Program-made: the position numbers and the translations under genes | Assembly (NCBI GenBank): GCA_028700655.1 | Contig: JAQVSG010000010.1 | Location: 1 to 44,721 of the forward strand | Direction of reading: 5' to 3' | From: Caldisericia bacterium | Lineage (GTDB): Bacteria > Caldisericota > Caldisericia > UBA6126 | DNA length: 44,721 nt | Shown here: positions 31,817 through 44,397 of the stretch, piece by piece | Layout of the letters: each line of letters opens with the position of its first letter | Numbering within the stretch: the first letter of the stretch is position 1 | Notes under the pieces: generated by a model | What the model saw: the letters and a program-made list of their open reading frames with translations, nothing else | What the model was told of the DNA's origin: nothing | The model's database searches: none

Positions 31817-34528
31817 TTAGGTGAAATGGAAATAGAGAAAGATTGTTTGCGTACCGCCATCCCATTCTATTGTAGCACCTAAAGGTTCTGTGACAAATCG
31901 GAGCGGTACCATCGTGCGATTGTTCAAAATGAATGGAGCAGCATCAATCTTAGCCATTTTACCATTTACAAAAATTTCTCTTTTCCCTATCCATAATACT
32001 ACTTCGTTTTGTTTATACAAAACTTGAATCCTTTTTTCTTGGGGATCCCATTGAACAGATCCACCTACTATTTCACTCACGAAGCGAAGGGGAACATATG
32101 TTCTTTGTGATTGTAGAATAGGAGGTGCTTCCAGCTCCCAAGGCCACAGATAATCATTTACATACACATGTTGGTTTTGTATTTGCAATCGAATCGTATA
32201 GGATTCTGAAATACAGCTCACTTCAATTGATCTTTCTTGTACAGATTGGTCGGTGGCAATGGCTCGAAATTGTAGTTGACTTATACCGGCAGGCACTCCA
32301 ACCAAGGTTGAAAAGAGCCCATCTGAAGAAAGAGAAATCGGTTGATTTTGAACATAAAGTTTTGCTTTCGGATCGGCTTTGCCTTGTATTTCAAAAACGG
32401 GATGAAAGACAGTAATATTAGCATCCTTGTATAGTTGCAGTGAAGAGGGTCGAGGGATCAGTGACAGTTCGTTGGAAAAATCACTATGAGCCCCTTCTTT
32501 TGTCACTGCCTTCAGGGTGTAGTAATACAATACTCCATTGCTAACAGTATCGTCCACATACATTTCCTCTTGTCCAGGTAGGGAAGCAATTCGAACCATT
32601 TCATCACCAGACACTGTGGATCGATATACATCCAGGGACCAAATCCCAGGATATTTTTTCCAATACAAAACAGATCTAGTATCGGATCCATAAATTTTTT
32701 CAAGAGTCGGAGGTTGCAGAAAAGAAGAATCTCCTTTTAAGGTTTTCATAGATACGGGGATGTGAATCGATTTTGGTTCCATTCCAGATCCCGAGCATAA
32801 CAATATCAATTCCGCCTGATATTCCCCAGGAGGAACTTGGGTACCATCTGCTTGTATTGTTAATACTGCCGAACCCTGAGGAGCAATGCTGCCCGAAGTG
32901 GGCTCGTAATCCAACCATATAGGGGTAAGATCCTGAGAAGGTATACCGGTCACCATATTCGAGTTGGTGCTCTCATTGCCGTAAGTATCAAAAGCCCTTA
33001 CGATATATCTGTATTTTACACCATTTTCCAAAGGTGCATCTTCGTAATAATGAACAATACCGACAGTATCGATAAAAGAAAACTCCATCTCAAATTCTTT
33101 TTTTCGGTAGATATGAAATCCTGCTAAATCTGGTTTGGGTTGTTCTATATCCCAACTCAAAATGAATTTCTGGTGGCCTGGATAGCCTTTCAATCTTGCA
33201 GGAGCAAAGGGTGGAATCACATTTTCGCCGACGCGGCAGAATGCAATCATATCTCCACTATTGTCTTCTACGTACAAAAAACCTTGCGCCATTACGAGAG
33301 GGGAGTTAATAGGAAACGACAAGGAATGCAACCAAATATCCGATCCATTGTTTCGATCAAAACAATAAATAGTCCCATCGTTTCCACCAAAATAGACAGT
33401 ATTCCATGCCACAATGGGTGGTATCAGAATGGTTGTTCCTACATTTTTTTCCCATTTTTTTTGCCCAGACAAGCGGTGCAAAGCAATCGCTTTCCCAGTC
33501 CCTGTAGAAAAGAAGACGTATTGTTCATCGACAGCGATAGAGGCTGTAATATAATCTTCTATGGGGTATTTCCATATCTCGTTTCCATCCAGAGAAAAAC
33601 AAACAACAGTACTCTGGAGATTGTTTTCATCAGTGGAGCAATAGTAAAGATTGTGTGCAAAGAATACGGCGGGTCCTGGAATAGGGTGGTCGGTGGTCAT
33701 AGAGTATACTTCGCTGCCCGTTCGGCAATGGGCTATCCAAAGGTTTGTATGATTCAAAACAGCCGCCAAAATTCCTTCATCGGTGGCAATAAAATCACAT
33801 TTCCCCTGACGATACCAAAGTTCACGTCCTGTAATAAGATCCAAACAGATCAGTTTCGATTGTGTACCAATAAACAACAAACCTTCCCATGCCGCAATAC
33901 CATACAAATTGGGTACAAAATAAGGTTTTGTCCAAATGACTTGCTTGGCAATTCGATCAAACAAAACAAGGTTCTGATTTGTAGCCACAATTAGATATCT
34001 TGTATAAAGATGAACGGAATATATGGCATCGCCTATGTGGTAAGAGTCTTGTTTGACGCCAGTTCTACTGTGAATATGATGGATTCTGCCATCCTCGGAG
34101 GGTAGGTATAGGTTGGTACCAGATAAAACAGGAGGTAACACGGCCTTGCTATAAGTGGATCGCCATTTCTGTTCAAAAGGGGGAGACGTTGATTCTATCT
34201 TGTTGTATCCTGTTCTTGCATAATCATACTGAGGAGTTACCCATGGAGAGCCAACTTCCTCAGAAGACACGCCGTCCGTTTCAAGAAAACTATTGTTTTG
34301 GCTTGGATTGGGTACTGCTTCTTTAACGACAGCAAATTGTAAAGGCTGTGTCGTTTGATTTGTAATTAACACTGCTTTGGTATCTCTCTGAGTAGAAGTT
34401 TGAGAGAAGGAAACAGACGAAGGCTCAACAGTGATATTGGCACTCCCCTGTACGGAATAAAAAAGAAATTGAGACTCCGATATCAGCAGACAAAGTAGTA
34501 CAACCAAGCAAAACCGAATTGTTTTCAT
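31817..34528 (-). CDS. Secreted protein: PQQ-type beta-propeller, fibronectin III-like modules, copper amine oxidase N-terminal-like domain
   Basis: Repeated propeller motifs (TGRELWYRQG, SGQKKWEKNVG, NGSDIWLHSL), FN3-like YRYIVRAFDTYGNES, C-terminal RTYVPLRFVSEIVGGSVQWD and RTMVPLRFVTEPLGATIEWD. Confidence 0.88.
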   Translation of the reverse strand: MKTIRFCLVVLLCLLISESQFLFYSVQGSANITVEPSSVSFSQTSTQRDTKAVLITNQTTQPLQFAVVKEAVPNPSQNNSFLETDGVSSEEVGSPWVTPQYDYARTGYNKIESTSPPFEQKWRSTYSKAVLPPVLSGTNLYLPSEDGRIHHIHSRTGVKQDSYHIGDAIYSVHLYTRYLIVATNQNLVLFDRIAKQVIWTKPYFVPNLYGIAAWEGLLFIGTQSKLICLDLITGRELWYRQGKCDFIATDEGILAAVLNHTNLWIAHCRTGSEVYSMTTDHPIPGPAVFFAHNLYYCSTDENNLQSTVVCFSLDGNEIWKYPIEDYITASIAVDEQYVFFSTGTGKAIALHRLSGQKKWEKNVGTTILIPPIVAWNTVYFGGNDGTIYCFDRNNGSDIWLHSLSFPINSPLVMAQGFLYVEDNSGDMIAFCRVGENVIPPFAPARLKGYPGHQKFILSWDIEQPKPDLAGFHIYRKKEFEMEFSFIDTVGIVHYYEDAPLENGVKYRYIVRAFDTYGNESTNSNMVTGIPSQDLTPIWLDYEPTSGSIAPQGSAVLTIQADGTQVPPGEYQAELILLCSGSGMEPKSIHIPVSMKTLKGDSSFLQPPTLEKIYGSDTRSVLYWKKYPGIWSLDVYRSTVSGDEMVRIASLPGQEEMYVDDTVSNGVLYYYTLKAVTKEGAHSDFSNELSLIPRPSSLQLYKDANITVFHPVFEIQGKADPKAKLYVQNQPISLSSDGLFSTLVGVPAGISQLQFRAIATDQSVQERSIEVSCISESYTIRLQIQNQHVYVNDYLWPWELEAPPILQSQRTYVPLRFVSEIVGGSVQWDPQEKRIQVLYKQNEVVLWIGKREIFVNGKMAKIDAAPFILNNRTMVPLRFVTEPLGATIEWDGGTQTIFLYFHFT

Positions 34529-34737
34529 GTGGATGATTTTTTTCCAGCCTCCAACCATTTTAATTTTGTTTCAACCGTTAATACGATACCAAATAAAATG
34601 AGAATGCTCCCTGCACAGATCACAAGCATCTTCTGCTCACCAGCTAGGTGGTAAAAGGAGCACAGCCCCAACAAAACTACAATGACAAAAAGTATAATGA
34701 ATGACAAAGCTGTAAGTATATTTTCACTTTTTTTCAT
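34525..34737 (-). CDS. Small two-TM membrane protein
   Basis: Two hydrophobic segments; ATGA overlap with the downstream gene. Confidence 0.55.
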   Translation of the reverse strand: MKKSENILTALSFIILFVIVVLLGLCSFYHLAGEQKMLVICAGSILILFGIVLTVETKLKWLEAGKKSST

Positions 34738-34739
34738 AC

Positions 34740-35033
34740 TTAATCCTCCAAATGCCATTTTTGAATCCAGGAATCAAACCATGACAAGCGTCTTTTAATG
34801 TTCCCGTCACGGGTATCATGCAAATAGATAATGAACCCAAGAAACATGACAAAACCAACAAAGAGAATGAGTGCAATGAGGAACATCAAAAAATGGGTTG
34901 TCTGATACCCAAAACGAATCAGCAATTGTACTTTTGAAAAAAGTACATTGCCCATAACAACAGTTGGTAGCAAGGCGACCCAGAAAAACCAACTGCTATT
35001 TCTGATGAACCAATGCGCCTTTTCTTTTTTCAT
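34740..35033 (-). CDS. Small membrane protein, accessory of the cytochrome b operon
   Basis: Two hydrophobic segments; overlaps the 3' end of the cytochrome b gene. Confidence 0.6.
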   Translation of the reverse strand: MKKEKAHWFIRNSSWFFWVALLPTVVMGNVLFSKVQLLIRFGYQTTHFLMFLIALILFVGFVMFLGFIIYLHDTRDGNIKRRLSWFDSWIQKWHLED

Positions 35034-36147
35034 TACGCTCTACTTTCTTTTGCCACCATCCAAACCCAAGTATAAATGCAATATAGATACCAAAAATCCA
35101 AGGGATGTCAGCACGTAAAATTTCAGATTCTGAATAAATCGCCGATCTCCAAGAAAGAATAATGAACAATGCATATCCAAGAACTAGAAGCGAATTCCAA
35201 AGAGGTCGTTTGGAGGGTTTTTTAAAATGGTTTCGTTCAATATACGGCATAAAAATGACGAATACTAAAAAGATGATGTTGAAGAGAATTCCCCACAAAA
35301 AGTCCAGGATTTTTAAGAAATAATATACAAAAAGGAAGTACCAATCCGGCAATATGTGTTCTGGAGGAGAAGAAGGATCCGCTGGGGCGAGAGAATGAGC
35401 CGGTTCAGCAATTTGCCATACAATCACAATGGCAAACAGTAGAATCACTCCCAATGCAGGTAAATTGACTCGTTTTTTTCGGAAGAAATAATAGTAGGAC
35501 TCAGCCAATACAACAATACCCACTGGTAACACATAGTGAAGGGCATAGAATCGAGTGAGTGTATTGGTACAAATAACAACCGACCCCCGCGCAATGAATT
35601 GGATGAAAGATCCTAGATGCAAATTGCCCAAAAGTGGGAGTTCATCTACAAAAGAAGGCATCGTGGTTCCAATGGTTGTAGCCCAGTAAGCCCTCTGGTC
35701 CATGGGTAATATATAGCCGCTAAATCCAAAAACAGTCGTAATGACCACAAAAAGTACAGCCCAAAACCATGTAAACTCATGAGGCTGTTTGTGTTCTGCT
35801 GCAAAGAAAAGACGGAACACGCGAAGCATCGCTAATATGATGATCGTATCTGCTAAATATCTATGAAAACCTCGCAACCATGGACCAATAGCAACCCCCC
35901 ACAATTGGAGTGTCATGATAGACTCAACACTCCTATACGCCATTTCAAAAGAAGGAATATAGTAAATGGCGAGTATGGATCCTAGTAAAATTTGTATCAA
36001 CAAACCAGAATACAGCATTCCTCCAATCCAATAAGCAGGATTTTTCGGGTGTTTTGGTTGTAATGTTTCGTCAAAAAGATCTATATTTCGAAATCGATTT
36101 TTGATCCAGTACGTTATTTTTTGCCATGTGTTCTCTCGTGCAGACAT
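34996..36147 (-). CDS. Cytochrome b/b6-type protein with Qo motif PDWY; heme bH ligands absent
   Basis: RGFHRY...GYILPMDQRAYWATT...TLTRFYALHYVLP...PPEHILPDWYFL. H95 and H204 present; residues 109 and 218 are R and Y. Confidence 0.9.
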   Translation of the reverse strand: MSARENTWQKITYWIKNRFRNIDLFDETLQPKHPKNPAYWIGGMLYSGLLIQILLGSILAIYYIPSFEMAYRSVESIMTLQLWGVAIGPWLRGFHRYLADTIIILAMLRVFRLFFAAEHKQPHEFTWFWAVLFVVITTVFGFSGYILPMDQRAYWATTIGTTMPSFVDELPLLGNLHLGSFIQFIARGSVVICTNTLTRFYALHYVLPVGIVVLAESYYYFFRKKRVNLPALGVILLFAIVIVWQIAEPAHSLAPADPSSPPEHILPDWYFLFVYYFLKILDFLWGILFNIIFLVFVIFMPYIERNHFKKPSKRPLWNSLLVLGYALFIILSWRSAIYSESEILRADIPWIFGIYIAFILGFGWWQKKVERNEKRKGALVHQK

Positions 36148-36156
36148 AACTTCCTC

Positions 36157-37044
36157 CTAGTATTCTTTTTCCAGAGTTTTTAACTCTTTCCAGGAAAAAA
36201 TGGGTCCATCTTGGCAAACATATTTGCCTCCACAGTTGCAATGTCCACATTTTCCAATTCCACATTTCATGTGATTCTCAAGGGAGACATACACCAAATC
36301 ATCAGGAAAATGAATAGTTGACAAATTATTAAGAATGGATTGGAACATAACAGGGGGTCCCACTACTAGAATCACGGTATTGGTTTGATCGGGAGAAGTA
36401 TGATGGAATAAGACTTCACTACAATCGCAATAGGATTTATCAACAAGATTACATACAAACCCTACATTGCCATCCCAACCTTTTTCAGGTTTATCAATGG
36501 TGATTTTACAGGTTGTTTTTTTCTTTAATCTCCATTGCTTCATTTCTTCTCGATAAATGATCTCTTGGGAATTTCTAGCACCAAACAGAATCTCTAGTTC
36601 CCCATATTGATCTTGGTTTCGAAAATAATCTTCAACAACACTTCGTAGTGGAACTAAACCAATTCCTCCTGCCACTAAAACGATGTTTTTCCCACGGAAT
36701 GTGTCCATTGGGAATCCGTTCCCAAAGGGACCTCTTAAGCCTAGATAATCCCCTTTTTGTAGGGTATGAATTTGGCTGGTAACAACCCCTGTTTTGGCAA
36801 TACAAAAAAGAAGAGTATGATTGATTGGGTCGTAGTCAGAGACAGATATTGGGGCTTCTCCAACCCCCGGTATAGAAAGTTGATAGAATTGCCCAGGGAT
36901 AAATTTTTCTGGATAGTTCTCTTTGGGTAAATCCACCAGAAAATGTTTTACTGTACTCGTCTGTTGACCAACTTCACGAATGGACGCAAAAAAGGGTAGA
37001 TAGGGATTATTCGTGGATGAAGGGATTTTTTTATTCTTCTCCAT
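36157..37044 (-). CDS. FAD/NAD-binding oxidoreductase with [2Fe-2S] C-terminus (HydG/FlxA-like)
   Basis: PGQFYQLSIPGVGEAPISVSD, LGLRGPFGNGFP, LVAGGIGLVPLRS, C-terminal MKCGIGKCGHCNCGGKYVCQDGP. Confidence 0.9.
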   Translation of the reverse strand: MEKNKKIPSSTNNPYLPFFASIREVGQQTSTVKHFLVDLPKENYPEKFIPGQFYQLSIPGVGEAPISVSDYDPINHTLLFCIAKTGVVTSQIHTLQKGDYLGLRGPFGNGFPMDTFRGKNIVLVAGGIGLVPLRSVVEDYFRNQDQYGELEILFGARNSQEIIYREEMKQWRLKKKTTCKITIDKPEKGWDGNVGFVCNLVDKSYCDCSEVLFHHTSPDQTNTVILVVGPPVMFQSILNNLSTIHFPDDLVYVSLENHMKCGIGKCGHCNCGGKYVCQDGPIFSWKELKTLEKEY

Positions 37045-38074
37045 GATCAACAACCTCCTTAATATCTTTAATAATAGACACCATGTCAATATTTACAGGA
37101 CAAGATCGAGTACATCGTCCGCATCCTGTGCAAGAAAAGAGTCCAAGCTGCTCGACTGAATACTGATATTTATGCATTACTCTCTGCCGCAATCGAGCTT
37201 CTCTTGTAGCTCTAGGATTATGTCCCGAAGCATGCAAGGTAAAGGCATAGTTTTGGCACGTATCCCATGTTCGGTATCGACATCCATCTTGGCAAGTTTC
37301 TAACAAGTCGGCAGAATCAAAACAAGTGCAGGTGGGACAGTTGAATGTACAAGCACCACAAGCAATGCATACATCACTGTATGACTTCCAGATTGAAGAG
37401 GAGTACGCAGAATCAATGCGGCCTTTGATGGATAATAAATCCACCTTTTCTCGAATCATTGATTCTGTTTGCTTCTGAATGGATGGGAGAACTTCATTAT
37501 CTGCCTCTGGAGAATCTTCAAGCAAGGACGGTATTTTTTCAATCAGATCCTTTCCTTTAACAGTGAGCACTTCAACAAGATAAAAGGAGTCTGTTTTTGC
37601 CATCATAATATCGGCGCCTTTTGAATCTACAGGTGAATTACCCACAGATGTGCAAAAACACGTATTGAGAGGATTTTGACATGCCCATCCTATAAGGATC
37701 GTGTGTTTCCATTTTTCCAGCACATAGACATCTTGGTGTGTTGTCGAATAGAATTCTTTTACATAGGCTATTGCATGCAAATCGCAAGGCCGAATCCCTA
37801 GAATAATTTGTGGTTCGTTATGCAGCGTTTCTTTCAGCGTTGCTTTCCCATCTTTTTGTAGATGAAATGTATACAAGGTTTCCATTTGAGGAAATAAATA
37901 TTCTTTGGGAGATCGGAGAGGGTTGCTCCCCTCTAACACTATGTCAGCTACTTGTTCAACAGGCCTAAATTCGCGTTCACCTGCATCGGTTTTAACAGGA
38001 GCAATCAGAGTAGCTTGCTTTTGCAATTCCTGTAGAAAGGCTTGTAAATTGTTGATTTTGAGTCTCTTTCTCAT
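37031..38074 (-). CDS. [4Fe-4S] dicluster protein, HydB/AsrA/FlxB-like
   Basis: CIACGACTFNCPTCTCFD and CTGCGRCTRSCPVNIDM. Confidence 0.85.
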   Translation of the reverse strand: MRKRLKINNLQAFLQELQKQATLIAPVKTDAGEREFRPVEQVADIVLEGSNPLRSPKEYLFPQMETLYTFHLQKDGKATLKETLHNEPQIILGIRPCDLHAIAYVKEFYSTTHQDVYVLEKWKHTILIGWACQNPLNTCFCTSVGNSPVDSKGADIMMAKTDSFYLVEVLTVKGKDLIEKIPSLLEDSPEADNEVLPSIQKQTESMIREKVDLLSIKGRIDSAYSSSIWKSYSDVCIACGACTFNCPTCTCFDSADLLETCQDGCRYRTWDTCQNYAFTLHASGHNPRATREARLRQRVMHKYQYSVEQLGLFSCTGCGRCTRSCPVNIDMVSIIKDIKEVVDHGEE

Positions 38075-38083
38075 GATTCCTCC

Positions 38084-39076
38084 TTACACCAAATCTTCGC
38101 CCAAATTGTAGGAAAGAAGTTTTTGTCTTTCATCGTTGGTTTTTCCCGGTTTATAACCAAACTCTTCTTCCATACATCGGTTGAAATATTCAAAAAATAT
38201 ATGAAGCGGAATATCTTTCGGACAGGCTCTTTCGCATTCACCACAACCCGTACAGTTGGGGGCTATATGATGGAACCGAATCATGTGATACAAAATTGTA
38301 TTCTCTGTTGTCACTTGATTTTCCACTAGCTTTGCACGTTCTTTGGGTTTATCAAACACACACTGATCAGAACAAAAGCAAGCAGGGCAAATATTGCGAC
38401 ACGCATTGCAACGGATACATCTACTAAGTTCTTGATGAATCTTCTGTTGTAACTCTTTGGGACTCATCGTATCTTGCGGTAATTTCTTATGAGTTTGGTA
38501 ACGGTGTTTCAAGCGTGTGCGATATTCTTTTTCGTCACCCACAAAATAGTAGCCATAGTAGTAGGGCAAATCACAGTTTCGAGCATCCTCGCATTTGCGA
38601 AGCCAACTTTCTCTTTTTTCAAAGACATACTCTTTTCCACTGATATCAGTACATAGGATCTGAAAATCAGTTTCCTGCATGTCAACGATAGACTGATCAC
38701 AATGTTTTTCAATCTTCTTTCGATCAATGATTCCATCACAAGCTACCACAATTAGATTCACCAAAGTCTCGGATATTTGTTGATCAGAAAATGTTTGCAT
38801 GACAGATTTAGCATCACAAGGTTTGCACACAATATGAATCTTCCCCTTAAAATGAGGGGGCAGAATCTCTTGTCGATTCCTTTCGTTAAGATATTTTGCT
38901 AACGATATATCACAAAAAGAATCAAATACGATATCTTGAATATCCTCTTTTCGATACAAAAAAGCAGGAGTTCGGTGTCCAGGCAAAGATGCATTTTTCC
39001 ATGCTATGATTAAATCGCCTGGTTTCCATATCTGTGTTAAAAGTTGCTGAACATTTTGCTCAATTTGCTTTTTCAT
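38084..39076 (-). CDS. [4Fe-4S] dicluster protein, FlxC-like
   Basis: CIRCNACRNICPACFCSDQC and CTGCGECERACPKDIPLHIFF; strong RBS before ATG. Confidence 0.82.
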   Translation of the reverse strand: MKKQIEQNVQQLLTQIWKPGDLIIAWKNASLPGHRTPAFLYRKEDIQDIVFDSFCDISLAKYLNERNRQEILPPHFKGKIHIVCKPCDAKSVMQTFSDQQISETLVNLIVVACDGIIDRKKIEKHCDQSIVDMQETDFQILCTDISGKEYVFEKRESWLRKCEDARNCDLPYYYGYYFVGDEKEYRTRLKHRYQTHKKLPQDTMSPKELQQKIHQELSRCIRCNACRNICPACFCSDQCVFDKPKERAKLVENQVTTENTILYHMIRFHHIAPNCTGCGECERACPKDIPLHIFFEYFNRCMEEEFGYKPGKTNDERQKLLSYNLGEDLV

Positions 39077-39470
39077 TACTCCCTCCTTTTGTATCGAAGG
39101 TAGATATTCTCTCGATAAATAGATCAATGTCTGCCATGGTCTTTTTGACATCAGAGGGTTTATGCCACAAGGCTTGAAAACGGTCTTCCTCTATCCCAAA
39201 CGCTTTTAAAGTATATTTTGTAAGAAGAAATCGTCTTTCAGATATAGCGGACCCTTCTCGATAATGACAATCTCCTGGTTCACACCCTAGCACAATAACA
39301 CCTTTAGCGCCTTCATGGATCAACTTGAGCGCTACACTTGTATTAAAACGTCCTGCACAAGTAATAGGAACAACTTGAACAAGGGGGTATTTTTTTTGAA
39401 TTTCTTGAAGTACTTTTTTTCTTTGTTCCGCCAAGCAAGGGAAAAGATAAATCAATTCTTTGTTAGCCAT
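39060..39470 (-). CDS. MvhD/FlxD-like [2Fe-2S] protein
   Basis: CAGRFNTSVALKLIHEGAKGVIVLGCEPGDCHYREG. Confidence 0.9.
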   Translation of the reverse strand: MANKELIYLFPCLAEQRKKVLQEIQKKYPLVQVVPITCAGRFNTSVALKLIHEGAKGVIVLGCEPGDCHYREGSAISERRFLLTKYTLKAFGIEEDRFQALWHKPSDVKKTMADIDLFIERISTFDTKGGSNEKAN

Positions 39471-40459
39471 ATTGCCCGAACCTCCTCTTGTATAGATTTT
39501 GATGGGTCGTTATAGAGCTGAATTGCCAATGATCTACAAGCTCCCTCACATATACCACATCCTTGGCATTTTGTTTCATCCACAAAGGCCACAACACGTT
39601 GCCCATTGGCAATGGAATGAATTGCTTTTTTGGGACAAACATCGACACAATACAAGCAACCTGTGCATCGTTTTGGATCTACTTTTGCAAAAAGCTGTTT
39701 TCGCTTTAAGAATAAAGGAATCAAAGCAAGAAGGACACAAACACCCAAGAATATGAGTAAAACGGAAATTTGTTGCATAAAAGTGGGAACAGTGCCTTCG
39801 AATGCAACCGGTGTTTCGGGTAAATAGGGGATGGGAAAAAGCGCTGTTAAAATAAACATAAACCCTGTAATAAAAAGGAGTAAGGACAGTGGGGGTGTAA
39901 TTTTGGGTCTAGCAATGCGCTTAAAATGAGCAATAAGACCAATCAATATAAGAAAAGGTAACAACAGGTGAATTCCAAAATTCAAGGACAATAGATTTTG
40001 GTATTGTCGTCGTCCAATCTCAAAAAAATCGGCCCACTTCATTAACCAAGCTTCAAATTGTGGAGTATAGGAGGATAAAAAACCAGTATAAATAATGACA
40101 GCCACCAAAAAGACAAGGAACAAACCACTAACCCAACCCAGATTCCTGGGTTTGGTGATCTTATTGGTAGACCACATACGAAACAAATGTAAAAAAGCAA
40201 ACAATAGCATTCCCATGGCAGCGTAGCGATGAAAAGTACGCAAGTAGACTCCAAAGGGTAGCTGGTTGGTTATGTATACCAAAGAACCGTATGCACCTGG
40301 TATAGGGGTATTATAAGCTCCCCCAATGGCAGGAACAAAATTCATAAACAAAAAGGTACCCGAAAGAATTTGGAATACTAAAAAAATAAAAGTAATTCCG
40401 CCAAGGTAGTAGAAAGGGTTGTTTAGATACGATACTGTTTTGGTTTGAATGTCTCTCAT
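39452..40459 (-). CDS. Cytochrome b (b6-like) fused to a C-terminal 2x[4Fe-4S] ferredoxin domain
   Basis: RTFHRYAAMGMLLFAFLHLFRMW (H77/H91) and FGIHLLLPFLILIGLIAHF (H164/H178); C-term CTGCLYCVDVCPKKAI and CQGCGICEGACRSLAI. Confidence 0.9.
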   Translation of the reverse strand: MRDIQTKTVSYLNNPFYYLGGITFIFLVFQILSGTFLFMNFVPAIGGAYNTPIPGAYGSLVYITNQLPFGVYLRTFHRYAAMGMLLFAFLHLFRMWSTNKITKPRNLGWVSGLFLVFLVAVIIYTGFLSSYTPQFEAWLMKWADFFEIGRRQYQNLLSLNFGIHLLLPFLILIGLIAHFKRIARPKITPPLSLLLFITGFMFILTALFPIPYLPETPVAFEGTVPTFMQQISVLLIFLGVCVLLALIPLFLKRKQLFAKVDPKRCTGCLYCVDVCPKKAIHSIANGQRVVAFVDETKCQGCGICEGACRSLAIQLYNDPSKSIQEEVRAIWLTKN

Positions 40460-40965
40460 TCTCCACCTTCTTCAGTGCTTTCTAAATAGATATCGTCTCC
40501 TTCAACTTTGATTGAATAGACAGGTAAACCTCGAGGAGGTGGTCCTGCTGTAACCTCACCGGTAGTCGGATTAAAGGCACCATTGTGACAGTTACACCAT
40601 ATTCGTTGCTCAGGATCTTTTTCTTCATCCCATCGTACAATACACCCGAGGTGAGGACAAACTGCACTGTATGCATGAAACTCTCCATCCACATTGGCAA
40701 TGATTCCATAGATGTCTTGTCGGACATATTGAGGTCCAGCAAAAGGAAGATCGAGTTTCACACTGAAAGAATGCCCAGTTCCTTCAGGTACATCCTTCAC
40801 AGAAGCAATTACAATGGGTTCAAATTCGGCTGCAAATTGATACCCAAAAAACTTGAAGGGTTTCGCATCATGGTAAAAAAGCTGTAACAATGGAGATGCA
40901 AAAACGAACCCCGTTAACAACATACAAACAATCGTTGCTATAAGCACTTTACTGCTTTTTGTCAT
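40456..40965 (-). CDS. Rieske [2Fe-2S] protein, membrane anchored
   Basis: N-term TM; CPHLGC and CNCHNGAF boxes; PPPRGLPVYSIKVEGD. Confidence 0.93.
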   Translation of the reverse strand: MTKSSKVLIATIVCMLLTGFVFASPLLQLFYHDAKPFKFFGYQFAAEFEPIVIASVKDVPEGTGHSFSVKLDLPFAGPQYVRQDIYGIIANVDGEFHAYSAVCPHLGCIVRWDEEKDPEQRIWCNCHNGAFNPTTGEVTAGPPPRGLPVYSIKVEGDDIYLESTEEGGE

Positions 40966-41092
40966 ACAAACCTCCAACAAAAAGTACGCCCCATAAAAAA
41001 AATTGAATGATTCAAGTAGCATTAATTATATAAATTTTTTTTCGGAAATAATGACGAATTCGTAAAGAATTGGTCGAAATCAAAATTGGGTA

Positions 41093-41653
41093 TCAAGAAT
41101 CCATGGAAAAAAAAGACACTTGACCCACTCGGATTCTCCCCGTAGCAACCTTTACAATGACTACACTGCTGCGAAGATCGGGGTACGATGTTAGAATAAC
41201 ATGGCCCCCTGCAGAAGGAGTTCCTGCATACTTGAATGTTAATGTACGTGGGAGAAGGGGAGATCCACTGTACCCAAACTCGACGGAACCACTACAGATA
41301 CTACCGTATTCGTCAACATAAGCAGGGGTCAATATTCCAAAATAAAACGGAAATCCAATATTTTTGGGAAAGGTACGTGTAATGTATTTTCCCGAGCAAT
41401 TCAGTCCGTTTTCCTCGGTTTCAAATGCATAATAGTTATCTGTGGGATAAAACACAATTTTTAAATTCTGATGGGTGGAAATCGATTTCATTCGAAGCAT
41501 CTGGAGATCTTCGGCTAAGGTGCAAACGCAAATATCGAGTTGCCGTTGTTGCAACACATCCCTTGATAAAGAAACAAACGATCCACTAAGAATTACAATC
41601 ATCGACATCCAAAAAAAGAGTTCAAAAAATATATGAGAAGAAACTCGCTTCAT
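41093..41653 (-). CDS. GspH/FimT-like pseudopilin
   Basis: N-terminal hydrophobic helix FFELFFWMSMIVILSGSF, short start with ATG 41653. Confidence 0.6.
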   Translation of the reverse strand: MKRVSSHIFFELFFWMSMIVILSGSFVSLSRDVLQQRQLDICVCTLAEDLQMLRMKSISTHQNLKIVFYPTDNYYAFETEENGLNCSGKYITRTFPKNIGFPFYFGILTPAYVDEYGSICSGSVEFGYSGSPLLPRTLTFKYAGTPSAGGHVILTSYPDLRSSVVIVKVATGRIRVGQVSFFSMDS

Positions 41654-41654
41654 G

Positions 41655-42275
41655 TTATAAAAGGTATCCCACGATAAACCCAAGAGATATAAAGGGGATC
41701 AATGGAATTCTTCGGATTTGTAAAGGTTTTGAAAATGTAACTTTTTGGACAAAAATGACAATCATCGCGAAAATACTTCCTGAAATAAAGGTTATACAAA
41801 AGGAGGCCCAAATAGTTGCAATGGGGAACAATGGAGATAGAAGTGCAAAGTAAAGAATGTCGCCTTCTCCTAAACCTTGTTTTTTAGAAAAAATATACGG
41901 AAGGAACATGAATAGATAACCAATGAATGCTCTTGCAAAAACAATGCCTATACAACGACTCCAATTCGCAGAACACAATAAGGCTATACAAGAATACGAC
42001 TGGATAGCATGGGCACTTATAGTTCCTATCCATTCCTCCATAACCCGATACCCTGTTACGTAGGAGACACTGCTTCGCACAGCGAGTGGTAAACGAAGAT
42101 AACACTCGCTGGTGTCCTTCGCATAGGAGAGACATACAAAAAATATTACCAGTAGTGACAGCCACCAAAACCAAGTAACAGATATGCTCTGTTTTCGAAA
42201 ATCCTCCACAGAAAAAAGGATCATCGTAAGAAGCAATACGATTTTATCCACTGTAGAATACCTTTGCAATTTCAC
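41655..42275 (-). CDS. Type IV prepilin peptidase (A24), methyltransferase domain absent
   Basis: Catalytic Asp candidates in FSVEDFRKQSIS and GLGEGDILYFALL; IPLIPFISLG. Confidence 0.7.
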   Translation of the reverse strand: MKLQRYSTVDKIVLLLTMILFSVEDFRKQSISVTWFWWLSLLVIFFVCLSYAKDTSECYLRLPLAVRSSVSYVTGYRVMEEWIGTISAHAIQSYSCIALLCSANWSRCIGIVFARAFIGYLFMFLPYIFSKKQGLGEGDILYFALLSPLFPIATIWASFCITFISGSIFAMIVIFVQKVTFSKPLQIRRIPLIPFISLGFIVGYLL

Positions 42276-42825
42276 GTTTCAAAATTTTCCCACTGGTTGC
42301 TTCTTCTGTAGAGATTGTATATTTCATGGTTAAAGAAGGAGAGTAAATATACTGATGAGATAAAACATAACACTTGTAATAGGAATTCACATACAAGGGA
42401 ACCTGTAATAAAGGGTGTGTGTAAATCCCTTTTTGATCAGGCTTCAACATAAAAGCGGACATTTGACATATCATTTTTGTCGAAGTTTCATTGATGAATG
42501 TATAGACCAGAACGATATCTTCAGGGTGAACGGGACTACTTTTTAGATACACTTTTGGTTGTTCCAACAATTGCATTTTAAAGCCATCTTTCCCTGCAGT
42601 TTTAAAAAGGTCGAGTAAAATAAATTCTCCTGCTTCTTTCGCTTGATCCAATTTCATTTGATCCAATGACGCCTGCACAACAAGTTGATTTCGAAGGGTT
42701 TGTTGAATAGAGTAGACGGACAATAGAAGAAGCAGTGATATGATAAACACAACAGAGGGTAGAGCAAATCCTTTGCGTTTTAAACGAGCATATGGATGTA
42801 AAAAAGAATCCAATTGCGTTTTCAT
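42244..42825 (-). CDS. GspK/PilX-like minor pseudopilin
   Basis: KRKGFALPSVVFIISLLLLLSVYS prepilin-type N-terminus lacking Glu5. Confidence 0.6.
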   Translation of the reverse strand: MKTQLDSFLHPYARLKRKGFALPSVVFIISLLLLLSVYSIQQTLRNQLVVQASLDQMKLDQAKEAGEFILLDLFKTAGKDGFKMQLLEQPKVYLKSSPVHPEDIVLVYTFINETSTKMICQMSAFMLKPDQKGIYTHPLLQVPLYVNSYYKCYVLSHQYIYSPSLTMKYTISTEEATSGKILKREIAKVFYSG

Positions 42826-43325
42826 GATGTCAATGGAAAAAAGAGCATTCGTGAATACGTTCGTCCCATAATATCTTCTATACAGATTTGAATTTGTAAC
42901 GATTCTCCATCAGGGTATCTTGTTATCATGAACCTTCTGATTACTTTTTGAGTCAAATTTTGGAAGGTTCCATACCCTATGTCTCTACCTACTTCATTGC
43001 CTTTTGTATAATAACGGATCAATTTCTGATCTACGGTTTTAAAAGACAATATCTGTTCGCTAATCCCTTCTTTTGGACGTATTGAAATAGGCTCATACAT
43101 GAACTGTGTCCATTGTGTTTCAATGTCTTCCATTAAAAACAAAACATCATAATACACAGAATTTTGCTTTGTATCCTGGTACAAAGCACTTGAATATTGT
43201 TGTATCCATCCACCAATGGGGAATAGAATCATTCCACAAATCATCACACTTATCAAAGTTTCGACAGTGCTAAAAGAAGGGAAAGCGTGTCGGATCGGAG
43301 AAGGCTTCTTTTTTTGTTCTTCCAT
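42822..43325 (-). CDS. PilW/GspJ-like minor pseudopilin
   Basis: FPSFSTVETLISVMICGMILFPIGG prepilin-type N-terminus with Glu5. Confidence 0.55.
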   Translation of the reverse strand: MEEQKKKPSPIRHAFPSFSTVETLISVMICGMILFPIGGWIQQYSSALYQDTKQNSVYYDVLFLMEDIETQWTQFMYEPISIRPKEGISEQILSFKTVDQKLIRYYTKGNEVGRDIGYGTFQNLTQKVIRRFMITRYPDGESLQIQICIEDIMGRTYSRMLFFPLTS

Positions 43326-43330
43326 TTCTT

Positions 43331-43831
43331 TTATCCACACGATTTGATATACAAGGAAGAAGCACAATAGTGGTTGTTACCAAACGTATAAAAAACAATC
43401 ACATGATACAATGTGTAAGACTGCTGATAGATAGAAACAGGCTTTTTAGATACCAGTACTTGATAAGGATTTTCAATAATATCAGCAGGAAGAGAGATTT
43501 GGAAAAAAGGAATAGCACTTGATAAAGAAACGGGTACGGTAACAAAGGGATCGGTAGTATACTTACAATAATGAATAGGGGTTTCAAAAAATGTCTCGTC
43601 TTGAATCCATTCTTCGTTTTTACTGTGAAGCTGGCATGCTATAAAGTGACTAGTTTCAGTAAGTTTTCTTTGAAGTTGTGAGTGATTTTTGGAGGAATGG
43701 ACAAAGATCATCCAACGTTGAAATCCAAATAGAAAAATAAGAATACATAGAATAGAAACCAGGGTCTCAAAATAGGTAAACCCTGGTTTGGAGCAAGGAA
43801 AAAAAGATACGTATTTACGAGTTTTTTGCAT
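43331..43831 (-). CDS. Minor pseudopilin
   Basis: KPGFTYFETLVSILCILIFLFG prepilin-type N-terminus. Confidence 0.65.
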   Translation of the reverse strand: MQKTRKYVSFFPCSKPGFTYFETLVSILCILIFLFGFQRWMIFVHSSKNHSQLQRKLTETSHFIACQLHSKNEEWIQDETFFETPIHYCKYTTDPFVTVPVSLSSAIPFFQISLPADIIENPYQVLVSKKPVSIYQQSYTLYHVIVFYTFGNNHYCASSLYIKSCG

Positions 43832-43854
43832 AGTCCCTTTTGAGTTATAGGGTA

Positions 43855-44397
43855 TTATTCATCAAGTTCGATACTTACTATGCAATTGGAATCATATACA
43901 TCATCAAACTCATCAGAATATACAATGGTAATTGTATCGTCTGCAAGAGTAGCTGATGTATCGCTGATCTCAGCGGCTTTGTTGGGACCAATTGACCATA
44001 TTATGTAGTTTTGATGATCTACAAATAGGTGATACTTGTATTCATTCTCTGAGGTAGCTTGATTGAAAATATCTACAGGAATACGGACTCCAAGATAATC
44101 GATTCCTCCAGGCAACCCAGCGATGGTATAACTTTCACTTGTATTTACTGCGTCATCGGTTGTATCAATGCCCAGTAAATCGTTTAGTGAAGAAGGATAG
44201 CGACCCCAATCTGTATAGAAACACTTGATCGCTGTGGATATGGTAGAGAGATCCATTTTAGCACGAGCAGACTTACTTCTGTTAATATAACCTGCTACTT
44301 GGGGTACGGCAACGCCTGCGATAATGATAATAATGCCGATCGTAATAAGCAACTCTACCAAGGTAAATGCACGTTTTCGAACAGGATACTTTTTCAT
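43855..44397 (-). CDS. GspG-like major pseudopilin
   Basis: KRAFTLVELLITIGIIIIIAGVAVPQVAGYINRSKSARAKMDLSTISTAIKCFYTDWGRYPSSLNDL. Confidence 0.85.
   Translation of the reverse strand: MKKYPVRKRAFTLVELLITIGIIIIIAGVAVPQVAGYINRSKSARAKMDLSTISTAIKCFYTDWGRYPSSLNDLLGIDTTDDAVNTSESYTIAGLPGGIDYLGVRIPVDIFNQATSENEYKYHLFVDHQNYIIWSIGPNKAAEISDTSATLADDTITIVYSDEFDDVYDSNCIVSIELDE

Follow-up and report, generated by a model that had tools for sequence, protein, structure and literature searches.

The window analysed here, a contig of 44,721 nucleotides from a Caldisericia bacterium (JAQVSG010000010.1), carries on its minus strand a run of eight genes, in which neighbours overlap or lie 9 bp apart. Their order is a Rieske protein, a cytochrome b fused to a ferredoxin (cytb1-Fd), FlxD-, FlxC-, FlxB- and FlxA-like proteins, a second cytochrome b (cytb2), and a small membrane protein:

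40456..41022, minus strand: Rieske [2Fe-2S] protein, CPHLGC...CNCHNGAF (Pfam PF00355, 4.4e-12, and ortholog alignment)
39452..40459, minus strand: cytb1-Fd, six-TM cytochrome b with a C-terminal 2x[4Fe-4S] domain
39536..39667, minus strand: eight Cys of the cytb1 ferredoxin domain (HdrA matches 7bkb_A, 3.7e-8, and 5odc_A, 3e-7)
39060..39470, minus strand: FlxD/MvhD/FlpD-like [2Fe-2S] protein (PF02662, 4.2e-24; paralog of FlxD on contig C79)
38084..39151, minus strand: FlxC-like 4Fe-4S protein (paralog on contig C79)
37031..38074, minus strand: FlxB-like protein (Fer4_22; ShyB/HydB/AsrA relatives; PF17179, 1.1e-29, and NCBIfam)
36157..37089, minus strand: FlxA-like FAD/NAD(P)-binding protein with a DHODB-type Fe-S binding domain (PF00175, PF10418; ShyC/HydG/AsrB relatives by NCBIfam)
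34996..36147, minus strand: cytb2, 383 aa, full-length cytochrome b that keeps the Qo motifs and the ligands of bL but not those of bH (Pfam N- and C-terminal cytochrome b domains)
34740..35033, minus strand: 97-aa membrane protein, possible small subunit, overlapping the end of cytb2

The operon has no gene for a cytochrome c or for cytochrome c1/f, and a scan for promoters and terminators gave no signal above shuffled sequences. The seven main genes stand in the same order in the second family (f6), at a different genomic site. The 97-aa protein has weakly conserved counterparts in other orthologous operons of family f1, and none was detected in the f6 operons. The neighbours of the operon are, on one side, a PQQ-like/copper amine oxidase N-domain protein, dnaN and recF (31817-34558) and, on the other, pilin-like and prepilin-peptidase-like genes (41093-44397); this arrangement is kept, at least partly, in a related genome (L033).

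Cytb2 adopts a cytochrome b fold in its AlphaFold2 model (pLDDT 88), and every PDB match listed for the model is either a cytochrome b chain or a complex that contains bc1. A preliminary description of this DNA held that the protein keeps the histidine ligands of heme bL (H95 and H204) and a PDWY Qo motif, while both histidines of heme bH are replaced, by R109 and Y218. We came to the same assignment, and the four codons lie on the minus strand where that description placed them:

35863-35865, minus strand: H95, codon CAT, helix B ligand of bL
35821..35823, minus strand: R109, codon CGC, at the helix-B position of the bH His
35758..35760, minus strand: A130, at the helix-C position of the Gly packed against bH
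35536-35538, minus strand: H204, codon CAC, helix D ligand of bL
35500..35502, minus strand: E216, codon GAG, invariant in Caldisericia
35494..35496, minus strand: Y218, codon TAC, at the helix-D position of the bH His
35338..35349, minus strand: PDWY, the Qo motif

Alignment to solved cytochrome b6 chains places H95 at the helix-B ligand of bL and R109 at the helix-B ligand of bH. The register of helix D is set by P208, so that Y218 is P+10, a column occupied by His in 41/41 outside relatives. Conservation of non-histidine residues at the two bH columns had been named beforehand as a check on the reading, and it is borne out: R109 and Y/F218 are present in 7/7 Caldisericia orthologs, and no ortholog has His. 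In the alignment used for these counts (A2; 7 Caldisericia sequences and 41 from outside, including Chloroflexota, Nitrospirota, anammox bacteria, Acidobacteriota, Armatimonadota and others), column 109 is Arg in all seven Caldisericia and His in all 41 outside sequences. Column 218 is Tyr in six of the seven and Phe in the remaining one, against His in 41/41, and column 130, the helix-C Gly in contact with bH, is Ala or Thr in 7/7, against Gly in 41/41. The bL set, H95, H204, G56 and G144, is present in 48/48 sequences. The Qo motif reads PDWY in all Caldisericia cytb2 proteins and PEW(Y/F) in 41/41 outside relatives. Beyond this alignment, helix B has Arg in every ortholog read through that helix, and the bH position of helix D has Tyr or Phe in every ortholog read through it. 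The outside relatives that were read are the best 80 of 369 in a genome scan, so that rare bH-less cytochromes are possible elsewhere. A scan of viral contigs with cytb2 gave no relatives.

Only three histidines are invariant in cytb2, namely H95, H204 and H264, which leaves no conserved substitute for the bH ligands. Two close pairs of cytb2 orthologs have dN/dS of ~0.05 and ~0.04, indicating strong purifying selection. A sequencing error or a decaying pseudogene has a negligible chance of being the explanation and is rejected, since the same residues recur in independent genomes of five genera and dN/dS is ~0.05. As judged from the sequences, bH has truly been lost from cytb2, and this loss is old and under constraint; its age follows from the ~38% identity that is shared by the two families. 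Column 216 is Glu in 7/7 Caldisericia and in 0/41 outside sequences, and a salt bridge between R109 and E216 was considered; this is only a guess, as helix positions +12 and +14 face different sides. The cytb2 proteins of the second family (L036 9941-11419 and L039 8846-10912) contain an insertion of ~100 to 300 residues in the outer-side A-B loop, just past helix A.

The partner cytochrome is complementary to cytb2. The preliminary description credited it with all four heme histidines and a ferredoxin, and both are in place: the histidines are H77, H91, H164 and H178, and the ferredoxin has eight Cys. The four histidines and both Gly pairs are kept in 8/8 aligned cytb1 sequences. The PEWY/PDWY motif and the YWATT segment are absent from cytb1. 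Neither subunit unites both His pairs with a Qo site, as is expected of a member of the Rieske/cytochrome b complexes: cytb2 has the bL pair only, and cytb1 has both pairs without the Qo motif. Since a Qo motif is missing from cytb1, the two proteins appear to divide the work, with cytb2 contributing Qo and bL, and cytb1 contributing bL, bH and an exit for electrons. The structural model of cytb1 contains six predicted helices and, with pLDDT of 62, is too weak to be read beyond that number. From the six helices and the standard topology of cytochrome b, we infer that the C-terminal ferredoxin is on the cytoplasmic, bH side of the membrane. This ferredoxin matches HdrA of the same genome (38.8% identity over 80 aa, 5e-9). 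In the NCBIfam profile of HdrA2, the tail of cytb1 aligns with positions 567-641 and FlpD with positions 676-773, so that the two together reproduce the end of HdrA2. In Hdr complexes, the C-terminal ferredoxin domain of HdrA faces MvhD/FlxD.

The four genes between cytb1 and cytb2 are FlxD-, FlxC-, FlxB- and FlxA-like, in this order. The same genome contains, in one run on contig C79 (L160 243-6893), the genes HdrC-HdrB-HdrA-FlxD-FlxC-FlxB-FlxA, and each Flx protein of the window has a paralog there, in matching D-C-B-A order. HdrA, HdrB and HdrC are absent from the window operon, which thus reads, gene by gene, like an FlxDCBA operon with the Rieske protein and cytb1 standing in the place of HdrCBA and cytb2 added at the end. 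The genome does encode HdrABC, and the window Flx proteins might be thought to serve that distant complex, but it is adjoined by an FlxDCBA set of its own and has no need of another, so that this idea is largely refuted and retains next to no credibility.

Caldisericota are a group of uncultured anaerobic bacteria. We found cytb2 in 10/54 of their genomes, and these ten represent two families and five genera. Both cytb1 and cytb2 are present in eight of the 54, two more are interrupted by a contig end inside the operon, and 44 have neither. In the phylogenetic tree, cytb2 proteins make up one clade (support 100/98), which is compatible with a single loss of bH. A recent duplication of cytb2 as the source of cytb1 is not favoured by the tree, where the two form separate clades and cytb2 is placed beside ordinary Rieske-linked cytochromes b; cytb1 looks to have been recruited from a separate cytb-Fd family, found also in Chloroflexota, rather than split off from cytb2. 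Fusions related to cytb1, with both parts covered, occur in 12/400 Chloroflexota genomes, mostly beside genes for COX1, DsbD-like proteins and heavy-metal ATPases, and without a Rieske gene. In a sample of 399 Bacillota genomes no cytb-Fd match was obtained at 1e-35, an observation of limited weight. None of the 71 outside cytochrome b loci has a full Flx set beside it.

Several Chloroflexota loci deserve mention in their own right. L145 8444-15437 and the similar loci L146-L154 encode a cytochrome b with 2x[4Fe-4S], joined by FlpD in relatives, and their role is perhaps in electron supply for an oxidase or for copper insertion. In one Anaerolineales genome, the locus L124 3710-14784 includes a triheme cytochrome c, Rieske protein, SUIV, b6, a GltD-like FAD/Fe-S protein, a cytb-Fd-FlpD-cyt c fusion and a cytochrome oxidase. 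The fusion protein keeps its heme histidines, and the locus has the appearance of a Rieske system that is aerobic, linked to NAD(P) and in possession of all its hemes.

The Rieske protein of the window contains the CxHxxC...CxCH cluster-binding boxes (PF00355 and alignment). In both families it lacks the Ser and Tyr that raise the potential of the cluster (CNCHNGAF and CRCHDGFF, with Ser replaced by Gly). A typical Rieske potential is +300 mV, which we take as the baseline. The loss of the Ser and Tyr hydrogen-bond donors lowers the potential by 130 and 65 mV (quoted in PMC12954380), and the residues of the window protein suggest a value of ~+100 mV. With menaquinone at -70 mV and NAD at -320 mV (PMC12954380), splitting menaquinol between such a Rieske center and NAD+ would run uphill by about 75 mV at standard potentials, and any cost of the membrane potential would come on top. 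The reaction between Qo/Rieske and NAD(H) is accordingly predicted to be near enough to equilibrium to be reversible, and production of NADH is not implied. MenA and MenG are present in the genome, which is 88.6% complete, and the futalosine enzymes MqnA/MqnD and the 49-kDa subunit of complex I were not found in it. The presence of CcmF suggests that the organism has c-type cytochromes; a CxxCH scan gave 146 matches, compared to 70 in the reversed control, with no evident multiheme cluster among the matches listed.

We consider it reasonably probable, on the strength of gene content and residue conservation, that the gene products assemble into an asymmetric Rieske/cytochrome b complex. Its core would be an obligate heterodimer of cytb1 and cytb2, as the preliminary description predicted, and it would link the quinone pool with NAD(H). 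Quinol would be split at Qo of cytb2, with one electron taken up by the Rieske cluster and the second by bL. As cytb2 is devoid of bH, the second electron would have to cross to bL of cytb1, from which it would move to bH of the same subunit and on to its ferredoxin; FlxD, FlxC and FlxB would then relay it to the flavin of FlxA and to NAD+. The entire path could also run in reverse. On its own, cytb2 would be a dead end for the bL electron, and a partner with bH would be needed; the heterodimer, with transfer between the two bL hemes, is favoured by the co-occurrence of the two cytochromes, by the close packing of their genes in one operon, and by the fact that an electron on bL would have nowhere else to go. 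The chemistry has an experimental precedent: in a cross-inactivated bc1, where one cytochrome b is Qo-dead and the other is bH-dead, bL-bL-bH transfer proceeds at catalytic rates (PMC4330944).

The overall plan would be that of FlxABCD-HdrABC, with the flavin-bifurcating HdrA core swapped for a quinone-bifurcating core made of the Rieske protein and cytochromes b. Removal of bH from cytb2 would delete one of two points on the cytoplasmic side at which electrons may leak back to menaquinone, and it is leakage to menaquinone on the negative side that the authors of the anammox study see as the chief difficulty for Rieske complexes that reduce NAD(P) (PMC12954380). We see about an even chance that the complex is a natural obligate heterodimer in which quinol electrons exit only by inter-subunit bL-bL transfer, to NAD(H) and not to a Qi site, and in which a quinone core has replaced the flavin core of HdrA on FlxABCD. 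Several observations count against our preferred account. Without the Ser and Tyr residues in the Rieske protein, uphill reduction of NAD+ becomes harder. The operon lacks a cytochrome c gene, and the genome places listed in the CxxCH scan show no obvious multiheme cluster that could serve the Rieske protein as a partner. In Chloroflexota, genes for cytb-Fd-FlpD proteins are neighbours of oxidase or cytochrome c genes, with no second cytochrome b nearby, which indicates that this family can work alone.

The heterodimer may also be real and yet deliver its Qo electrons to menaquinone. In such a Q cycle with an NADH inlet, NADH would reduce menaquinone at a putative Qi site of cytb1 by way of Flx, the ferredoxin and bH, and cytb2 with the Rieske protein would oxidise menaquinol. 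A genome in which the complex I subunit was not found needs another link between NADH and quinone, and a Rieske protein of the low-potential type fits an ordinary menaquinone Q cycle. The scheme does not, however, explain why bH of cytb2 was lost and why this state is maintained under selection, and we regard it as rather unlikely. Still less likely, in our opinion, is the existence of two separate complexes, one in which cytb1-Fd and Flx form an NADH:quinone or NADH:cytochrome enzyme, and another in which cytb2 and the Rieske protein form a bL-only homodimer for non-bifurcating oxidation of quinol. The solitary cytb-Fd-FlpD proteins of Chloroflexota speak for such a separation, and bc1 fully devoid of bH is amenable to study, with bL reduced at Qo (PMC4330944). 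The same knockout, however, has no connection between Qo and Qi (PMC4330944), leaving bL as the dead end discussed above, and the shared operon, the gene order kept by both of the diverged families and the strict co-occurrence of the two cytochromes all argue for a joint function. It is also known that Tyr can ligate heme in unrelated proteins, and the near-constant Tyr218 might thus hold heme or another cofactor in the bH pocket of cytb2, or the emptied pocket might bind quinone; but one ortholog has Phe at this site, the opposite ligand is always Arg, the helix-C Gly is changed to Ala or Thr and no other His is conserved on the bH side, which makes this reading very improbable.

The heterodimer coupled to NAD(H) that we favour has relatives of several kinds among known systems. 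Like the window operon, the anammox complexes Kustd1480-1485 and Kuste4569-4574 combine a Rieske/cytochrome b core with a cytoplasmic Fe-S/FAD/NAD(P) module, and bifurcation at Qo has been proposed to make NAD(P)H there; in contrast, two identical cytochromes b make up the dimer in the models of these complexes, with hemes bP, bN and cN and a further heme proposed for the interface. Their other components include a five-TM subunit IV, multiheme cytochromes c and a high-potential Rieske protein (>+300 mV) (PMC12954380). The window system would differ from them in having two distinct cytochromes b, one of which has lost bH, a module of the Flx type, no c subunit in the operon, and a Rieske protein without the potential-raising Ser/Tyr. 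In an engineered Rhodobacter bc1, which joins a Qo-dead half (G158W) to a bH-dead half (H212N), the Qo electron must likewise take the route from bL to bL and bH of the partner, but this is a man-made fusion/heterodimer that reduces quinone at Qi (PMC4330944), whereas the complex of the window would be natural and have a ferredoxin/NAD(H) module behind bH.

With FlxABCD-HdrABC of the Desulfovibrio type, and of contig C79, the operon shares the FlxD-C-B-A order and protein families and the HdrA-like ferredoxin beside FlxD, but it has a Rieske protein and two membrane cytochromes b instead of HdrC, HdrB and HdrA with its flavin bifurcation. With bc1/b6f it shares the Rieske protein, the fold, bL ligands and Qo motif of cytb2; it differs in the missing bH ligands of cytb2, the absence of a cytochrome c1/f gene, and the presence of a second, different cytochrome b. 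Finally, the Chloroflexota cytb-Fd-FlpD(-cyt c) fusions (L145, L124 and others) have the same order of cytb, 2x[4Fe-4S] and FlpD, and keep the histidines for both hemes where these were read; unlike the window genes, they usually come without a Rieske protein or second cytochrome b, have FlpD fused, and are unlinked to FlxABC.

In the open-licence literature we found no description of a Rieske/cytochrome b system in Caldiserica or of FloxABCD combined with a Rieske protein. The parts are known; what appears to be new is their arrangement, in which an Flx module is joined to one subunit that has Qo but no bH and to another that has the hemes but no Qo. Electron crossing between the bL hemes of two monomers is a matter of debate for working bc1, and direct tests use engineered mutants. 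If our interpretation is true, a natural enzyme that depends on the bL-bL step would allow this debate to be put to the test in a native system. The case for NAD(P)H-generating Rieske complexes, as proposed for anammox bacteria, would become clearer, and the chemistries of quinone and flavin bifurcation would be linked through one shared Flx module. For this organism, whose 88.6% complete genome has yielded no 49-kDa subunit of complex I, the operon may provide a connection between NADH and the quinone pool.
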